From NCBI RefSeq assembly GCF_032362555.1, contig NC_083526.1, positions 2,872,001 to 2,936,000 on the forward strand: DNA of 64,000 nt. The letters run 5' to 3'. Position 1 is the stretch's first letter, and each line of letters opens with the position of its first letter. The notes under the pieces were generated by a model. The model was not told the DNA's origin. It did no database searches and saw only the letters and a list, made by a program, of their open reading frames with translations. The stretch is from Amyelois transitella. Lineage: Eukaryota > Arthropoda > Insecta > Lepidoptera > Pyralidae. This document shows positions 3,801-54,775 of this stretch, piece after piece. Made by a program: the position numbers and the translations under genes.

Positions 3801-6357
3801 CTCTACACAACGCCCCCATTTTCTTTCTGGGTCTCTTACCGCCCCCCTTGAGACCTGCAGCCCACAAGGGGGCGTTATCGCCCACTTTGGGAAAGACTGG
3901 TTTAGACATACTGGCTTCGGTAAATCACGTGGTTCCTTCTTGTTCCAGAAATCCAACCGATCACGGACGGCTTCCTCGGTAACAACTTCGTGCGGGTGAC
4001 GTGTTTCCTCACGTTCAACTTTATGGCCATGATAGGCAACATCACGGCCAGCTTGTGGCAATATGTGAGTATACAGCATATTTTATTTGTTTGGAAAACA
4101 CGTGTATATATTATATAATTAAGAATAATATGCCGTGTGGCTCCCGGCACCAATACAAAAAATAATAGGACCACTCCATCTCTTTCCCATGGATGTCGTA
4201 AAAGTCGACTAAGGGATAGGCTTACAAACATGGCATTCTTTTTTAGGCGATGGGCTAGCAACAGTAGCAACCTCTCACTATTTGGATCTCAATTCTATCA
4301 TTAAGCCAAATAGCTGAACGTGGCTATTCAGTCTTTTCAAGACTGTTGGCTCTGTCTTCCCCGCAAGGGATATAGACGTGACCATATGTATGTATTAAGA
4401 ATAATGTATTGGTGCCTATATTTGAACTAGAAAGCACTCGCTGCTCCAGCTAAAACAGCAGATACTTTGAACTTCTGCCCACGTTGGAATTTTTTTTCTT
4501 ACTCCTAGACTACGTAACCTAAATAAGGAACTTTCATGGCAAATTTCAACTTAATTTAAAAAAACAATTGTTGAGCGTAACTGGCAATTCGAAAGATGCA
4601 GTCTCTGCCTATCGCTCCGAGAGAAAGGCGTAAGTTTATGTACATACATACATATGGTCACGTCTATATCCCTTGCGGGGTAGACAGAACCAACAATGAA
4701 TGGCCACATTCAGCTATTTAGCTTATTGATAGAATCGAGATTTAAATAGTGACAGGTTGCTAACCCATCGCCTAAAAAGAATCCCAAGTTTGTAACCCCT
4801 GAGATAAAATTTGTGTAATGTACATACAAAATATATACCGTGTGGTTCCCGGCACCAATAAAAAAAGAATAGGACCACTCCATCTTGTTCCCATGGATGT
4901 CTTACCTAAAAGGCGACTAAGGGAAAGGCTTATAAACTTGGGATTCTTCTTTTAGGCAATGGGCTAGCAACCCGTCACTATTTGAATCTTAATTCTATCA
5001 TTCAGGCCAAACAGTTGAACGTGGTCTATCAGTCTTTTCAAGACTGTTGGCTCTGTCTACCCCGTAAGGGATAAAGACGTGATCATATGTATGTATGTAC
5101 AAAATATAGTTATATTTATATCTTTCCTTTCCACAGCCGACCCGCCGCTGGCTGTCAGTGTTCACGACACTCCGCTTCCTGTTCATCCCGTTCTTCCTCC
5201 TCTGCAACTACAAGCCGGCGTCGCGGTCGCTGCCTATCCTCGTGTCCAACGACTGGGTGTACTGGGCGGGCTCGGCGCTGTTCGGCTGGAGCTCCGGCCA
5301 CGGCAGCTCGCTGGCCATGATGTATGTCAGCGGCGGGTAAGTGATACATACATACATACATATGGTCACGTCCATATCCCTTGCGGGGTAGACAGAGCCC
5401 GCCGCGCCAGACTCCTGCCGCCGCTGCCGCGACCTGCTGTGGGGCCCGCTGCAGGTGAATGCTGCATATCAGTCTTGGAAAGACTGAATGGCCACGTTCA
5501 GCCATTTGGCTTAACGATAGAATTGAGATTCAACTAGTGACAGGTTGCTAGCCCACCGTCTAAAAAAGAATCCCAAGTTTGTAAGTCTATCCCTTAGTCG
5601 CCTTTTACGACATGCATGGGAAAGAGATGGAGTGGTCCTATTATTTTTTGTATTGGTGCCGGGAGCTACACGGCACGGGTAAGTGATTCACTTTATAACT
5701 ATGATTATTGGGGTTTACCACGGGGTCTTTGTTTTATATTTGCGTTATCTCGGTTGAATTCTTAACTGTTGTGATGCTTCCGCGGCTCAGGGACCGCATT
5801 TAGACATTTCTTTCTTCCATTCCATCATCATCAGCACTTCCCCAGGCGTAAACGGTGGCAGTAATTTAAATTTATTTTTATATATATTCTATACGAGCTA
5901 AGACGGTAGTCATACTATTGGAAATATCTTACACTTCTAAATTGTGTCCATACGTGGAATCTGGGTCCTCAAAGAATTCGCAATTCTACTGGAAATAAAT
6001 TAGGGATTAATGCCATTAGAGCGATTTTTTAGTTGTGGCAACTATTTTTGTCATAGCTGCTCACATGCATACAACTTTTTTATATCCGTGAAATATTACT
6101 GTTCAGTGTGGTCGTGATGCAACTGGACCTAAACAAGGAAGAGGGAGATTACTGTTCAAAGCTACATATTAAGCGAGCAATAAATTTATAAAATTGCTAT
6201 TCGGTCTAACGTTTTTTACTTTATTATTTCCAGCAATGTGGCTCCCGAACACGCATCTACAGCGGGCATGCTCGGCTCCGCCACCCTCGTCTCGGGCATC
6301 TTCAGCGGCCTCCTCTTCACCTACATATGTCCGCTGATCGTGAACATCAACATCTAG
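807..6357 (+). CDS. Equilibrative nucleoside transporter (SLC29/ENT), C-terminal five exons
   Basis: Multi-pass membrane transporter for nucleosides, 5' end outside the window. Coding exons read from GT/AG borders and phase: 807-1036, 1828-2023, 3949-4064, 5137-5336 and 6234-6357 (stop TAG 6355-6357); the phases join correctly. The five exons give about 288 residues. ENT hallmarks: FQNSVYGVAARLPPKYTGA in exon 1, VTCFLTFNF in exon 3, LRFLFIPFFLLCNYKP in exon 4 and the GHGSSLAMMYVSGG / NVAPEHASTAGML join between exons 4 and 5. These match the conserved C-terminal half of SLC29 proteins. Exon 1 starts with two bases of a split codon, so upstream exons exist; none is visible in 1-806. Exon 2 is very GC-rich and encodes a cytoplasmic-looking Ala/Pro/Arg loop. 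Introns hold several element A copies and a hAT MITE. Which ENT paralogue it is cannot be told. Confidence 0.93.
1076..1338 (-). mobile_element. Element A SINE, full length, with TSD
   Basis: Reference copy of the commonest repeat in the window, 263 bp. Read on -, it starts gtgccgtgtggttcccggc, carries the block tcccatggatgtcgtaagag, the core ttaggcgatgggcttgcaac and ends ..gatatagacgtgac-like sequence with a TATG/ATAC-type tail. A 10-bp target-site duplication atagttttat flanks it (1066-1075 and 1339-1348), showing retroposition. It lies in ENT intron 1. Confidence 0.85.
1385..1500. repeat. Interspersed repeat fragment (family E)
   Basis: Contains the stretch gtacaaaaggcagacttaat, found with variations at 45205-45325 and 49625-49725, where it runs on to 'taatgctaatagcatt' and 'gccattgggttaagca'. 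Family unknown; probably the end of a retroelement. Confidence 0.5.
1543..1800 (-). repeat. Interspersed repeat M (ctagctgtgcccgcg type)
   Basis: Begins ctagctgtgcccgcgacttc and ends near gttttattatattaataaag; on - it starts with an (actaatattataaagct)-like head and 'gaagagtttgtttgtttgaa'. Two other copies are at 43099-43858 and 54968-55200 in the opposite orientation. It resembles a widespread lepidopteran short repeat, but I do not assign a class. It ends 27 bp before ENT exon 2. Confidence 0.6.
2051..2240 (+). repeat. Retroelement 3'-end-like repeat (ctagcgacccgctccgg type)
   Basis: Starts tactagcgacccgctccggc and contains gcatcgaaatccgttgcgta and ttgttttatactatgtagtg. This layout is common in insect genomes as a short retroelement end. 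Only one clear copy in the window; lies in ENT intron 2. Confidence 0.5.
2262..2415. repeat. Family C repeat
   Basis: Near-identical to 224-352: shares cacttattgacgtc, ccaaagcgcatgtgtagaag and agcggcggaacaaactacac. A more diverged copy is at 13565-13735 and a partial one at 17800-17930, which add 'atcttttggtttcaca'. Family not identified. Confidence 0.65.
2665..2822 (-). mobile_element. LINE 3'-end fragment (same family as 59665-63067)
   Basis: A (TATG)n tail followed on - by codons for ..CRDRGKWKEVVSAYPSRKEA, matching the C terminus of the large LINE ORF. Truncated at the 5' side after the AGGTCAAAAATACCC stretch. Lies in ENT intron 2. Confidence 0.85.
3084..3350 (+). mobile_element. Element A SINE, full length
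   Basis: Head gtgccgtgtggttcccggta at 3084, block cccatggatgtcgtaaaagg, core ggcgatgggctagcaacccg and tail gtgatcatatgtatgtacat. About 265 bp, in ENT intron 2. No clean target duplication seen. Confidence 0.8.
3657..3899. mobile_element. hAT-like MITE in an ENT intron
   Basis: A 243-bp non-autonomous DNA element. It begins CAGAGAGTCCCAAAC and ends in the near-complement GTTTGGGAAAGACTG-like terminus, so terminal inverted repeats start CAG and end CTG. It is flanked by 8-bp direct repeats ttttagac (3649-3656) and gtttagac (3900-3907), one mismatch. CAG termini plus an 8-bp duplication fit hAT elements. The interior has C-runs and G-runs near both ends and no coding capacity. Its right end is about 50 bp before ENT exon 3. 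Confidence 0.7.
4130..4393 (+). mobile_element. Element A SINE, full length, with TSD
   Basis: Head tgccgtgtggctcccggcac, tail gtgaccatatgtatgt. A 12-bp duplication attaagaataat flanks it at 4118-4129 and 4394-4405. In ENT intron 3, 65 bp after exon 3. Confidence 0.88.
4588..4800. mobile_element. LINE 3' end joined tail-to-tail to a truncated element A
   Basis: 4588-4638 reads on + as the end of the LINE (gatgcagtctctgcctatcg then aaggcgtaag). From about 4640 an element A copy in reverse orientation follows, starting at its own acatacatacatatggtcac tail and stopping near 4800 after gtttgtaac. The two tails meet as an inverted simple repeat. Confidence 0.75.
4836..5097 (+). mobile_element. 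Element A SINE, full length, with TSD, next to ENT exon 4
   Basis: Head accgtgtggttcccggcacc, tail gtgatcatatgtatgtatg. An 11-bp duplication tacaaaatata occurs at 4825-4835 and 5098-5108. The right duplication ends 28 bp before exon 4 (5137), so the insertion sits where a branch point would be expected. Confidence 0.88.
5346..5676 (-). mobile_element. Element A SINE whose insertion duplicated the ENT exon 4 donor site
   Basis: Reverse-orientation element A: its ATAC-type tail is at 5346 and its head ends cggcac at 5676. The 11-bp duplication gggtaagtgat is at 5335-5345 and 5677-5687. The left copy contains the exon 4 border and its GTAAGT donor (5337-5342), so an identical donor now lies after the SINE. 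The copy also carries a GC-rich insertion of about 72 bp (5399-5470) absent from other copies. Confidence 0.88.
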
Positions 6358-7575: not shown

Positions 7576-10500
7576 TTGTATTAATTAAAACATTTTAAAA
7601 ATGTTGTTATTATTTAGTCCTATTGGAAAATATGTAAAGGAATTGCTTATGCTTTGACAATGTATTGGTAAATTAAGATACTATAAATTAATAAATATAT
7701 CCAGTGCAGTACTAAGCTACCCTTATATCAAAGGTATAATATCGCCTTGCAACAGTTTCACGAATGTTTAAACTATTGACCTTGATTTTTTCACCTCATT
7801 GTAAAGACTATATATACTCTTAGTTTTCATAGGACATAGTTTTCATTTAAATTCAAATAATACATTGAAATTGGAAATTAAAGTTGTATGAAAGCTAGTG
7901 TGTACAGGTCTTAATAACTCATATGTATAACAATATCGAAATTATATTGATTAACAAGATATTTATGATATGAACATTTGCATTTGTATAAGGTTATATA
8001 TTGTTCAAGTTTGTTAGTACTATAGAGATTTTTTATCGTAGCTAGTACAATGTATGTAAATTTACGTGAATAAGATTATTTGAATGTCATCATAATGATA
8101 AGTAATTATATGTGGAATTGACATAGATTTGTGAGTAAATATGTCTTGAAAGAAACAGGATGCTGCCTATATGAGTCTACCATTGTTTGAGTTTGAATAC
8201 TTTCAACAAGGGTTTCATGGGTAGGCCACTAGCTTGTGGCACGGCTTTTTTTTGTAGAGGCTTGTTTTTTTTTTCGAATTGACTCAAGATTATAAAAATA
8301 CATCATTATTGTATATTGTTCTCAAAATATACTAAACAAATGACGCTATTCCCATTTCCTAACTATTAGTTTTTAACATTATTTTTGATGTTCAAGAATT
8401 ACTCAGATATTATGAAAATCCAAAGTGCTACTATTTTAAGTAAATAGGTTTATATAATTATATGTTTGACGCACATTTTTTTTGCAAATGATTTATATGG
8501 CAAAAATATTACACATTGAACTTAAAGAAATTATCGGAATATGAAAATAAAAATATTTTGTCGTATAAATCCTCTAATTATTTTAATAAAATTAGTAAGA
8601 TCGTTGCATTTTTAGACTAGGCTGACATGCATCATTATTAATTATACCTAGTTTTATTATAAACTAATAATGTTATAAGAAAACCTCATTAAAATACGAT
8701 AGTTATCATTTGCGATACGTTTTTGTATATTGAGTATGATTCCATTGAATTGTCAAACCTTCTATTCTACATACATTTTTATAAGACAAAATATCTGGTT
8801 ATCTTTGTCTTATTTTATGTATAACATTAACAAGTTGACCCTTTTTACATTCATTTACTAGTTTAAGTTTTTATTTAAATGTGTCACGATGCTTGATTTT
8901 GATAATTGGCAAATTAGGGAATAATTTTTAAAATATTCTTCAGTGACAACTATTTTTTCTTTCATCGCTTAAGCGTGAATTTTATGTATTATGTAGTATA
9001 TTTGTTGAAATTACATGAATACTATGTCGTCTTTTCTAACAAATCACGTTTGACAGACTGAAATACTAACATTGTTTAAGTTTTACATGACGCTAATAAT
9101 TATAGGTTATCTCTTTCGAATAAGTTGTCAAAGAAAGAGAACTGTACACTTTTGAATAACTAGTGTCACTAAGTCTTACGTCTAATTATTTACAGAAGGT
9201 GCTCTGATATTATTTAGGCAGTTTTAACTAGCTTTATGGTGGCATAAAAAAATCATAGTACAACTTAAACATGCCAAACTGACCAATCATGTTTCATTTC
9301 TAATGAACGGAGAGCTGTGGTTGGTTCCCTTAATTTGAAAAAAAAAAACCCCTAAAATTCTTCGCCAATTTTCTTTTGATGATTAAACCTTTGATGAATG
9401 AAAATTAAAATTAACTAAGAAAGATGAAACGCTTCGTCTTTGATTGAAAATTATAATGTTTTTTTTATTAATGGGGTTTTCTGAAAAATTACACCTAATG
9501 GAAATACAACTCTTTGGTATAAGTTAAATCCTTTTGAAATTCTGAATATATAACTTAAAGTGATCGCTAGTTAAAACTCGCTTAAGTACAATTTGCCAAA
9601 AACCAATATATTCAAGTGCCTATAGATATCAAATGTCAGGTTATTTTTTATTTAGCATACCTAGAAATGATTTGTTTTGTGAACATTTCCCCTTATCCCC
9701 GAGTGGTTGTTATACTTTATTTATTACTTAGTAAACATATTTTAATTTCAAAGTTTTATTTTATTTTATCCTTACGTTCCCTTTTTTAGTAGAAGTAGTT
9801 AGTAGTAGAGCTATATTAAAAATTGTAGATAGAATCATTTCACTATCATTTTATTCTTGCCATTTTTCACGAAAATCTATTTTAATTTTAATGAGACCCA
9901 GAGAAAGGGCTATTTTCAATCTTGATACAGAAATACCACTTTTATAAATCTTATCGGCAATTTTTGACGGCGCCGCAGAATGGTGCGCCATTAAAAACTC
10001 AATAAGATAATGACCTTCTTACAAGTTAAAATCAATAATAATTCAATAAGGGCGAAGTATAGTCTACTCGCTCTGACAATGATAGGTTCCAATATTTTTG
10101 TGCCATGAAAATGTGGTAATACTGTACGGAACTAAGAAAACTGATGAAAATGTAAAGGTGAATAGACAGTGAGAGAATCAGAAGATATGTAACAGTAATC
10201 GTGTAATCATAATTATCATACAGATAAATGTCCAGTCATCTGCAGGAGTCACATTCTTAAAAAATGTTCCTAAACTTGAAGTGACGAAGTCTTATCAAAC
10301 AAGTATATAAAATCGTGTATGACATAATCGCAATAATGACAATAACATTAGGTTTTTATTAGCACTTTTAAACAAATAGCCAAAATATTAAATTATTTAT
10401 GGATATACAGATGTTTAAAGGTAATCTAGGATGTTGAAGTTCCATATCGTATGATAATAAACATAAAAATGAATATATAACCTAAAAACAATACTTTCCT

Positions 10501-24258: not shown

Positions 24259-24510
24259 GGCCTCTGTGGCTCAGCGGTAGTACGCTTGTCTGTGACACCG
24301 GAGGTCCCGGGTTCGAATCCCGGCCAGGGCGTGATGAGAAAAGAACTTTTTCTGATTGTCCTGGGTCTTGGATGTTTATCTATATAAGTATTTATTATAA
24401 AATATAGTATCGTTGAGTTGGTATCTCGTAACACAAGTTTCGCACTTACTTCGAGGCTAACTCAATCAGTGTAATTTGTCCCGTATATATTTATATTTAT
24501 TTATTAGTTT
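24259..24510 (+). mobile_element. Element B: tRNA-headed SINE, full length
   Basis: Head has Pol III-type boxes: A box tggctcagcggtag and B box gggttcgaatccc. The body reads gtcctgggtcttggatgttt, tatcgttgagttggtatctc and gaggctaactcaatcagtgt. It ends in gtcccgtatatatttatat and a TTTA-rich tail. It cannot be a working tRNA gene: the 3' half does not pair into an acceptor stem and the sequence runs straight into the SINE body. Confidence 0.85.
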
Positions 24511-25530: not shown

Positions 25531-25702
25531 AAGGAAACATCCAAAATCCAAGCCAACCAGTAAAAGTCCGTTTTTCATCATACCCTGGCCGTGATTTCAA
25601 CTCAGGACCTAGTATCTCAATAGGAACTACCGCTAAGGCACAGAGGTCGAAGTTACGATTTATTAATAGCTTTGCTTTTTGGTAAGTACCTGTAAGTAAC
25701 GA

Positions 25703-31962: not shown

Positions 31963-32220
31963 AGCCACTGTGTCGCAACAGTAGTAGGTAGGTACGCTTG
32001 TTGTAACACAGAAGGTCCCGGGGTTCGGTTCCCGGTTAGGGCACGATAAGAAACGAACTTTTTCAGATTAGCCTGGGTCTTGGATTTTTTTATATATAAT
32101 TATAGGTATATTATAAAATATATTATCAATGAGTTAGTATCTCATTACACAAGTCTAGACCTTACGAGGCTAATTCAATCTGAGTAATTTGTCCCGTATA
32201 TATTAATTATTATTATTTAT
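31963..32220 (+). mobile_element. Element B SINE, old copy
   Basis: Same layout as 24259-24510 with many changes: ggtcccggggttcggttccc in place of the B box, then attagcctgggtcttggatt and aatttgtcccgtatatatta. A short diverged element A tail follows at about 32290-32352 (gggataaggagatatatgta). Confidence 0.75.
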
Positions 32221-54255: not shown

Positions 54256-54775
54256 CATACATACATATGGTCACCTCTATATCCCTTGTGGGGTAGACAG
54301 AGCCAACGGGTCTTGAAAAGACTGATCGGCCACGTTCAGCTATTTAGATTAATGATAGAATTCAGACTTAGAAATAGACGGCCTCTGTGGCGCAGCGGTA
54401 GTACGCTTGTATGTGTCACCGGAGGTCCCGGGTTCGAATCCCGGTCAGGGCATGATGAGAAAAGAACTTTCTCTGATTAGCCTCGGTCTTGGATGTTTAT
54501 CTATATAAGTATTTATTATAAAATAAAGTATCGTTGAGTTAGTATCTCGTAACACAAGTCTCGAACTTACTTCGAGGCTAACTCAATCTGTGTAATTTGT
54601 CCGGTATATATTTATTTATTTATTTAATTGAGATTCAAATAGTGATTGCTAGCCCATCGCCTACGAGAGGATTCCCTAGTATATAAGCCTATCCCTTAGT
54701 CGCCTTTTACGACATCCATGGGAAAGATATGGAGTGGTTCTATTCTGAAGTGCCGGAAACCACATGGGACATTAA
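54256..54775 (-). mobile_element. Element A (reverse) interrupted by a full-length element B
   Basis: A occupies 54256-54378 and resumes at about 54628-54775. A full-length B on + fills 54379-54627 (tggcgcagcggtag, gggttcgaatccc, tgtaatttgtccggtatata). The flanks aattcagacttagaaatag (54359-54377) and aattgagattcaaatag (after the TTTA tail) are imperfect copies of one A segment, that is, a target duplication of about 17 bp. Confidence 0.85.

Follow-up and report, generated by a model that had tools for sequence, protein, structure and literature searches.

When a mobile element inserts into a 5' splice site and duplicates it, which of the two resulting donors is used, and what becomes of the gene? 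This question is raised by a locus of Amyelois transitella within a window of 64,000 nucleotides (C22:2872001-2936000; the genome searched comprises 327 Mb in 33 contigs), in which a short interspersed element (SINE, a non-autonomous non-LTR retroposon), copy A, occupies positions 5346..5676 of the minus strand at the end of a coding exon of an ENT (nucleoside transporter) gene and in reverse orientation to it. The body of the element spans about 262 aligned positions and is followed by an ATGT tail. An 11-bp duplication around A had been reported in the first-pass annotation and is confirmed on re-reading: an exact search of the window finds GGGTAAGTGAT on the plus strand at 5335-5345 and 5677-5687 only, and no copy on the minus strand. 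Counting a C shared on the left, the direct repeat amounts to 12 bases, CGGGTAAGTGAT, at 5334-5345 and 5676-5687, with no extension to the right. Among the 700,040 pairs formed by the starts in the window and the 11 spacings from 337 to 347, exact 11-mer pairs occur twice, both of them belonging to the GGGTAAGTGAT repeat.

The donor GTAAGT had been placed inside this duplication, and a complete donor is indeed present in both copies, leaving two identical donors on either side of the SINE. The left copy of the target-site duplication (5334..5345, plus strand) contains CGG/GTAAGT, where the slash marks the exon border and 5336 is the last exon base; the right copy (5676..5687, plus strand) carries the second donor, with 5678 as the last exon base. 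The two lie 342 nt apart and each reads CGG/GTAAGTGAT. Both score 6.5 in a donor matrix, a value equalled or exceeded at 5 of the 3,505 GT sites on the plus strand of the window, and the only GT sites scoring at least 3 within 5137-6229 are those after 5336, 5454 and 5678. As judged from the sequence, a whole 5' splice site has been copied by the target-site duplication of a retroposed SINE, the retroposition route being one that we infer from the duplication; the identity of the two donor copies is uninformative at the divergence of A. Translation past an unused left donor runs GGC GGG TAA, with the TAA at 5338..5340 of the plus strand, just as had been proposed for the right donor. This stop is a property of the donor itself, as a retained intron starting with GTAA in that phase reads TAA, and the SINE is unnecessary for it. 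Use of the right donor would cut the protein 40 residues short.

The account of the element as a SINE stands; what it overlooked is a captured piece of a second gene, which brings a third donor-like site into the ENT intron. Copy A carries about 70 extra bases (5400-5469), rich in G+C (72% over 5400-5470), which occur only once in the window and are absent from all seven of the aligned SINE copies of the genome; among the matches listed in the whole-genome SINE search, query positions 71-135 are covered by A alone. They include a piece of 67 bp (5400..5466, plus strand), identical at 64 of 67 positions to its source units and comprising the end of an exon of a C1/myotubularin gene together with the start of the intron. 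At the left junction a 4-bp microhomology, AGCC (5396-5399, plus strand), is common to the SINE and the source, and at the right junction a TAT (5467..5469, plus strand) is foreign to both the source and the SINE consensus. According to the alignment the SINE is short of two bases at the right junction, beside CAGTCTTTTCAAGACTG, a stretch that can form a hairpin as read by eye and not folded. The captured donor, CAG/GTGAAT (5452..5460, plus strand; last exon base 5454; CAG/GTGAGT in the source), scores 4.8, which is equalled or exceeded at 24 of the 3,505 GT sites. The piece is unspliced, spans the exon-intron border, and runs in the sense direction of ENT but antisense to the SINE. SINE A is a chimera, and the ENT intron holds three donor-like sites.

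Six tandem matches on the minus strand at C20:2261880-2262324 (L016:4392-4836) represent the source, four of them with 96% identity over 67 bases and two with 93% over 61. An earlier description of the piece as an exon end of unidentified origin was dropped once the search of the species' own genome had located this locus. The 20-residue reading of the captured piece matches no Pfam family, and its matches in the PDB are non-significant (best E 0.39), eight of the nine being C1 domains. At the source the exon end SCRHCRDLLWGPLQ/gtgagt and a later exon start NGVRCVDCGAACHERC, both read on the minus strand, join to give a C1 domain (PF00130, E 8.1e-11), and the joined exons match 24 distinct C1-containing chains at E <=0.001, with PKC and Unc-13 ranking first. 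On that strand of L016 a myotubularin piece (PF06602, E 1.8e-11) lies upstream, and downstream there is a PH-like piece of 26 residues, which has no Pfam match and with which we take an SBF-type PH domain to begin. On the strength of the C1 and myotubularin matches and of this PH-like piece, the source gene is presumably Sbf-like (Sbf/MTMR5/13). The locus contains six intact CTGCAG/GTGAGTGCTGCA borders in tandem, with spacings of 78, 72, 78, 78 and 72, and all six donors lie within a single open frame of 301 codons; the source gene may thus offer up to six in-frame alternative donors, and it illustrates the way in which exon borders can become multiplied.

The gene that received the element appears to be intact. 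The exon ending at the left, ancestral donor (5137..5336, plus strand, 200 nt) had been called exon 4, which holds for the fourth exon within the window; in the joined model it is coding exon 6 of seven, two coding exons (L017:6988-7220 and 7669-7814) lying upstream of the window on the same contig. Within the window the plus-strand exons at 807-1036, 1828-2023 and 3949-4064 join in frame, the joined exons remain open through exon 6, and the last coding exon (6234..6357, plus strand) completes a split glycine codon before 40 residues and the stop. The seven exons give a protein of 414 residues with no internal stop, which matches PF01733 in Pfam with E 1.8e-57; on this sequence evidence the donor of exon 6 marks a genuine exon border. 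The part encoded in the window matches human ENT1, the sole sequence of solved structure at E <=0.001, and its last 40 residues align with the C-terminal end of human ENT1. The exon that holds the first ATG has an AG in front of it, and the model may therefore lack a 5' exon. The introns around exon 6 measure 1072 and 897 nt, and the exon itself, now 200 nt long, would measure 318 nt if it ended at the captured donor and 542 nt if it ended at the right one.

It was proposed in the first-pass annotation that the choice of donor decides whether the transporter is made. This is possible but finds no support, as introns of the length found on either side of exon 6 (1072 and 897 nt) lead one to expect, by analogy with human genes, that the upstream donor is used. 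In human, exon definition takes over above about 250 nt of intron (PMC9225289), and with both introns longer than this the upstream one of two equal donors is expected; events with donors of near-equal strength favour the upstream one in 60% of cases, and five human minigenes with identical donors used the upstream donor exclusively (PMC9225289). We propose that a member of an abundant SINE family was retroposed, pointing against the ENT gene, into the donor of its coding exon 6. The target-site duplication of 11-12 bp copied the complete donor, and at or after insertion the 67-bp C1/myotubularin exon end, with its donor, would have been patched into the SINE beside the hairpin-forming stretch. 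The left donor would then dominate the splicing of exon 6, since it retains its exon and its acceptor and spans the exon over the shortest distance, while extension of the exon by either of the other two would meet the TAA at once, with loss of the last 40 residues and probable degradation of the transcript. Thus the left donor probably carries nearly all splicing, with the captured and right donors as decoys, the right one expected to be mostly silent, and with an insertion that is tolerated and near neutral. The intact seven-exon frame of 414 residues gives no sign of ENT decay and, together with the divergence of the SINE at 10 of 262 positions, fits a long tolerance.

Several points weigh against this reading. 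When all human events are taken, with strength unmatched, the downstream donor is preferred in about 60% (PMC9225289), and the proximity rule itself would be carried over from human data. The left and right donors are equal, and no GT site of the region is stronger, which makes some low-level use of the right one likely. C13 carries a weaker ENT-like match (E 6.1e-6, 32%), found in a genome search made exon by exon that further matches may escape, and this might permit loss of the ENT gene in the window. Finally, A could be polymorphic.

Among the alternatives, the one that survives best, though unlikely, is a real switch, in which the left and right donors are used at comparable rates and the stop-containing message from the right donor sets the level of transporter. 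The identity of the donors over 12 bases and their scores, the highest of the region, would suit it, as would the position of the stop, 338 nt upstream of the junction at 5678 and 114 nt upstream of that at 5454, which suits decay. The introns of more than 250 nt on both sides and the 542 nt of the right-donor exon are however unfavourable, and the comparable human minigenes use the upstream donor exclusively (PMC9225289).

Quite unlikely is a partial exonisation of the SINE, with splicing from the left donor to an AG inside the element and the right or captured donor closing an in-frame cassette exon. Open in-frame inserts are available, from 5 of 21 AG sites when the right donor closes the exon and from 2 of 4 when the captured one does, an example being 5598-5678, with 81 nt, 27 codons and no stop. 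No AG site in 5350-6233, however, scores 4 or more as an acceptor, while the five ENT acceptors of the window score 4.3-8.0, and the acceptor of the example reaches 0.96, equalled or beaten at 317 of 3,324 AG sites; its 27 residues match no Pfam family. This 81-nt cassette had been weighed as the leading interpretation and was demoted to a rival for its poor acceptor.

We consider it very unlikely that the right donor dominates, leaving this ENT copy mostly silenced and another transporter compensating. Such silencing could draw on the preference of about 60% for the intron-proximal donor among all human events (PMC9225289) and on the second, weaker match on C13, yet the ENT frame of 414 codons has stayed open despite changes of about 3-4% in A, when decay would be expected in time. 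An equally doubtful proposal is that the ancestral, captured and duplicated donors together act as a working unproductive-splicing switch, in which condition-dependent use of one or other decoy shuts ENT off by way of the stop met at once; if true, retroposition would have installed an off-switch from its own target duplication plus the splice signal of a second gene. Least probable is an assembly artefact, for although a single assembly stands behind the site, the duplication has the length seen at other copies of the family, and 3 of the 67 bases of the captured piece depart from the source, which a misjoin would not produce.

The presence and the source of the captured piece are plain from the alignments, and we infer the time and the route of its arrival. 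In LINE-1 chimeras formed by RNA processing or template switching the parts share one orientation (PMC13174262). Here the piece is unspliced, antisense to the SINE and continuous across the exon-intron border, and we therefore regard a DNA-templated patch, made at insertion or in later repair, as more likely than copying from a sense transcript; an antisense RNA is a possible alternative template. Capture and insertion may be of similar age, with 3 of 67 and 10 of 262 differences, respectively, although these numbers are small. The latter count refers to the consensus of a seven-copy subfamily, with the captured bases removed, and indicates that the duplicated-donor state is not brand new; one of the ten differences is common to L004 and one lies at the capture junction. 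At 2.9e-9 mutations per site per generation, a rate for butterflies, the 8 private changes in about 260 sites would correspond to roughly ten million generations, a figure to be taken as a guide only.

Events of this type have printed relatives in the introners, which take a splice site from their own target-site duplication (PMC9860276); the donor that the SINE has captured from a second gene makes the present case an unusual variant. In both cases the target duplication of a mobile element supplies a 5' splice site, but introners create a new intron within an exon (PMC9860276), whereas the SINE of the window sits on an existing donor and the sequence to its right continues as a pre-existing intron to the acceptor at 6234. 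The minigenes of PMC9225289 are alike in having two donors of the same sequence, one acceptor and long flanking introns, although they are human and designed and the present case is natural, with a SINE and a third donor in between. In this respect the locus repeats in nature, within an intact gene, the classical experiment in which identical donors compete, and offers a test of the cross-exon proximity rule beyond human cells. Lepidopteran SINEs such as HaSE1-3 and PxSE1-5/SfSE1 (PMC3272025, PMC8010984) resemble A in size class, target duplications and frequent intron sites, and SfSE1 (298 bp) and PxSE5 (389 bp) share its ATGT tail (PMC8010984, PMC3272025); the comparison is with their descriptions, and the available text of these reports mentions no captured gene piece. 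In the chimeric retrotransposon insertions of PMC13174262, too, a retroelement copy is joined to part of some other transcript or gene; the foreign piece of A differs in being internal, antisense to the element and laid across an exon-intron border. A SINE in the dog merle gene is also in reverse orientation at a splice (intron-exon) border, but the available text of that report, unlike the case of A, describes no donor duplication (PMC7349775). A literature search for donors copied by the target duplication of a mobile element, covering mostly abstracts and few subscription papers, returned reviews, introners and unrelated cases and no like case. The captured exon-donor junction shows, in turn, that a short piece of a host gene with a splice signal can enter a SINE. 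Taking about 90,000 introns for the genome and 6,292 SINE candidates in 327 Mb, one would expect, as a rough estimate and before selection, about 10 insertions whose 11-bp duplication holds the six donor bases, so the type of event is not improbable.

These 6,292 candidates, 40 of them scored, come from a first look at the genome for a family spread over many contigs, whose other copies in the window match A piecewise at about 75-96%. At 14 other copies of the window, clear target-site duplications of 10-12 bp were found in four (starts 1074, 4127, 4834 and 25344), two (4641 and 18144) had 11-bp matches of tail-like ATGT/GTAT sequence and eight had flanking direct repeats of merely 4-7 bp; a duplication of 11-12 bp therefore fits the family, although most copies in the window lack a clear one. 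The start of the SINE, CCGTGTGG, may resemble tRNA-Arg; neither ARAGORN nor Rfam at its gathering score gives a match inside A, exact-pattern scans for pieces of the SINE had no match in viral contigs or in contigs of prokaryote genomes, and no mention of the head motif was found in the literature searched. By eye, three of the copies L002, L006, L007 and L008 are identical over the aligned SINE body and the fourth is one base off, which suggests that the subfamily was active recently and that A is older. Another copy, at about 1501-1707 of L003, has a second tail-like stretch inside its 3' part. The antisense strand of the SINE, read by eye, is often open, as in RLLRHPWERDGVVLLFFVLVPGTTRH (5598-5678, L016, L024-L025), and could enter gene predictions.

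The ENT introns between 3084 and 5676 hold five copies of the same family in 2.6 kb (3084, 4127, 4641, 4834 and A), one of which ends about 35 bp upstream of the acceptor of exon 6. The intron that follows coding exon 2 of ENT contains two long open stretches, each in a frame of its own (L017:8046-9450), that resemble a Tc1/mariner-type transposase. Elsewhere in the window two tRNA-His-like matches (24260-24331 and 54381-54452) are 94% identical, with 3' flanks that look alike by eye; the Rfam gathering score for tRNA is reached by 24260-24331 only, and further partial matches lie at 31987-32043 and 25583-25646. The pair probably represents a separate tRNA-derived SINE family.
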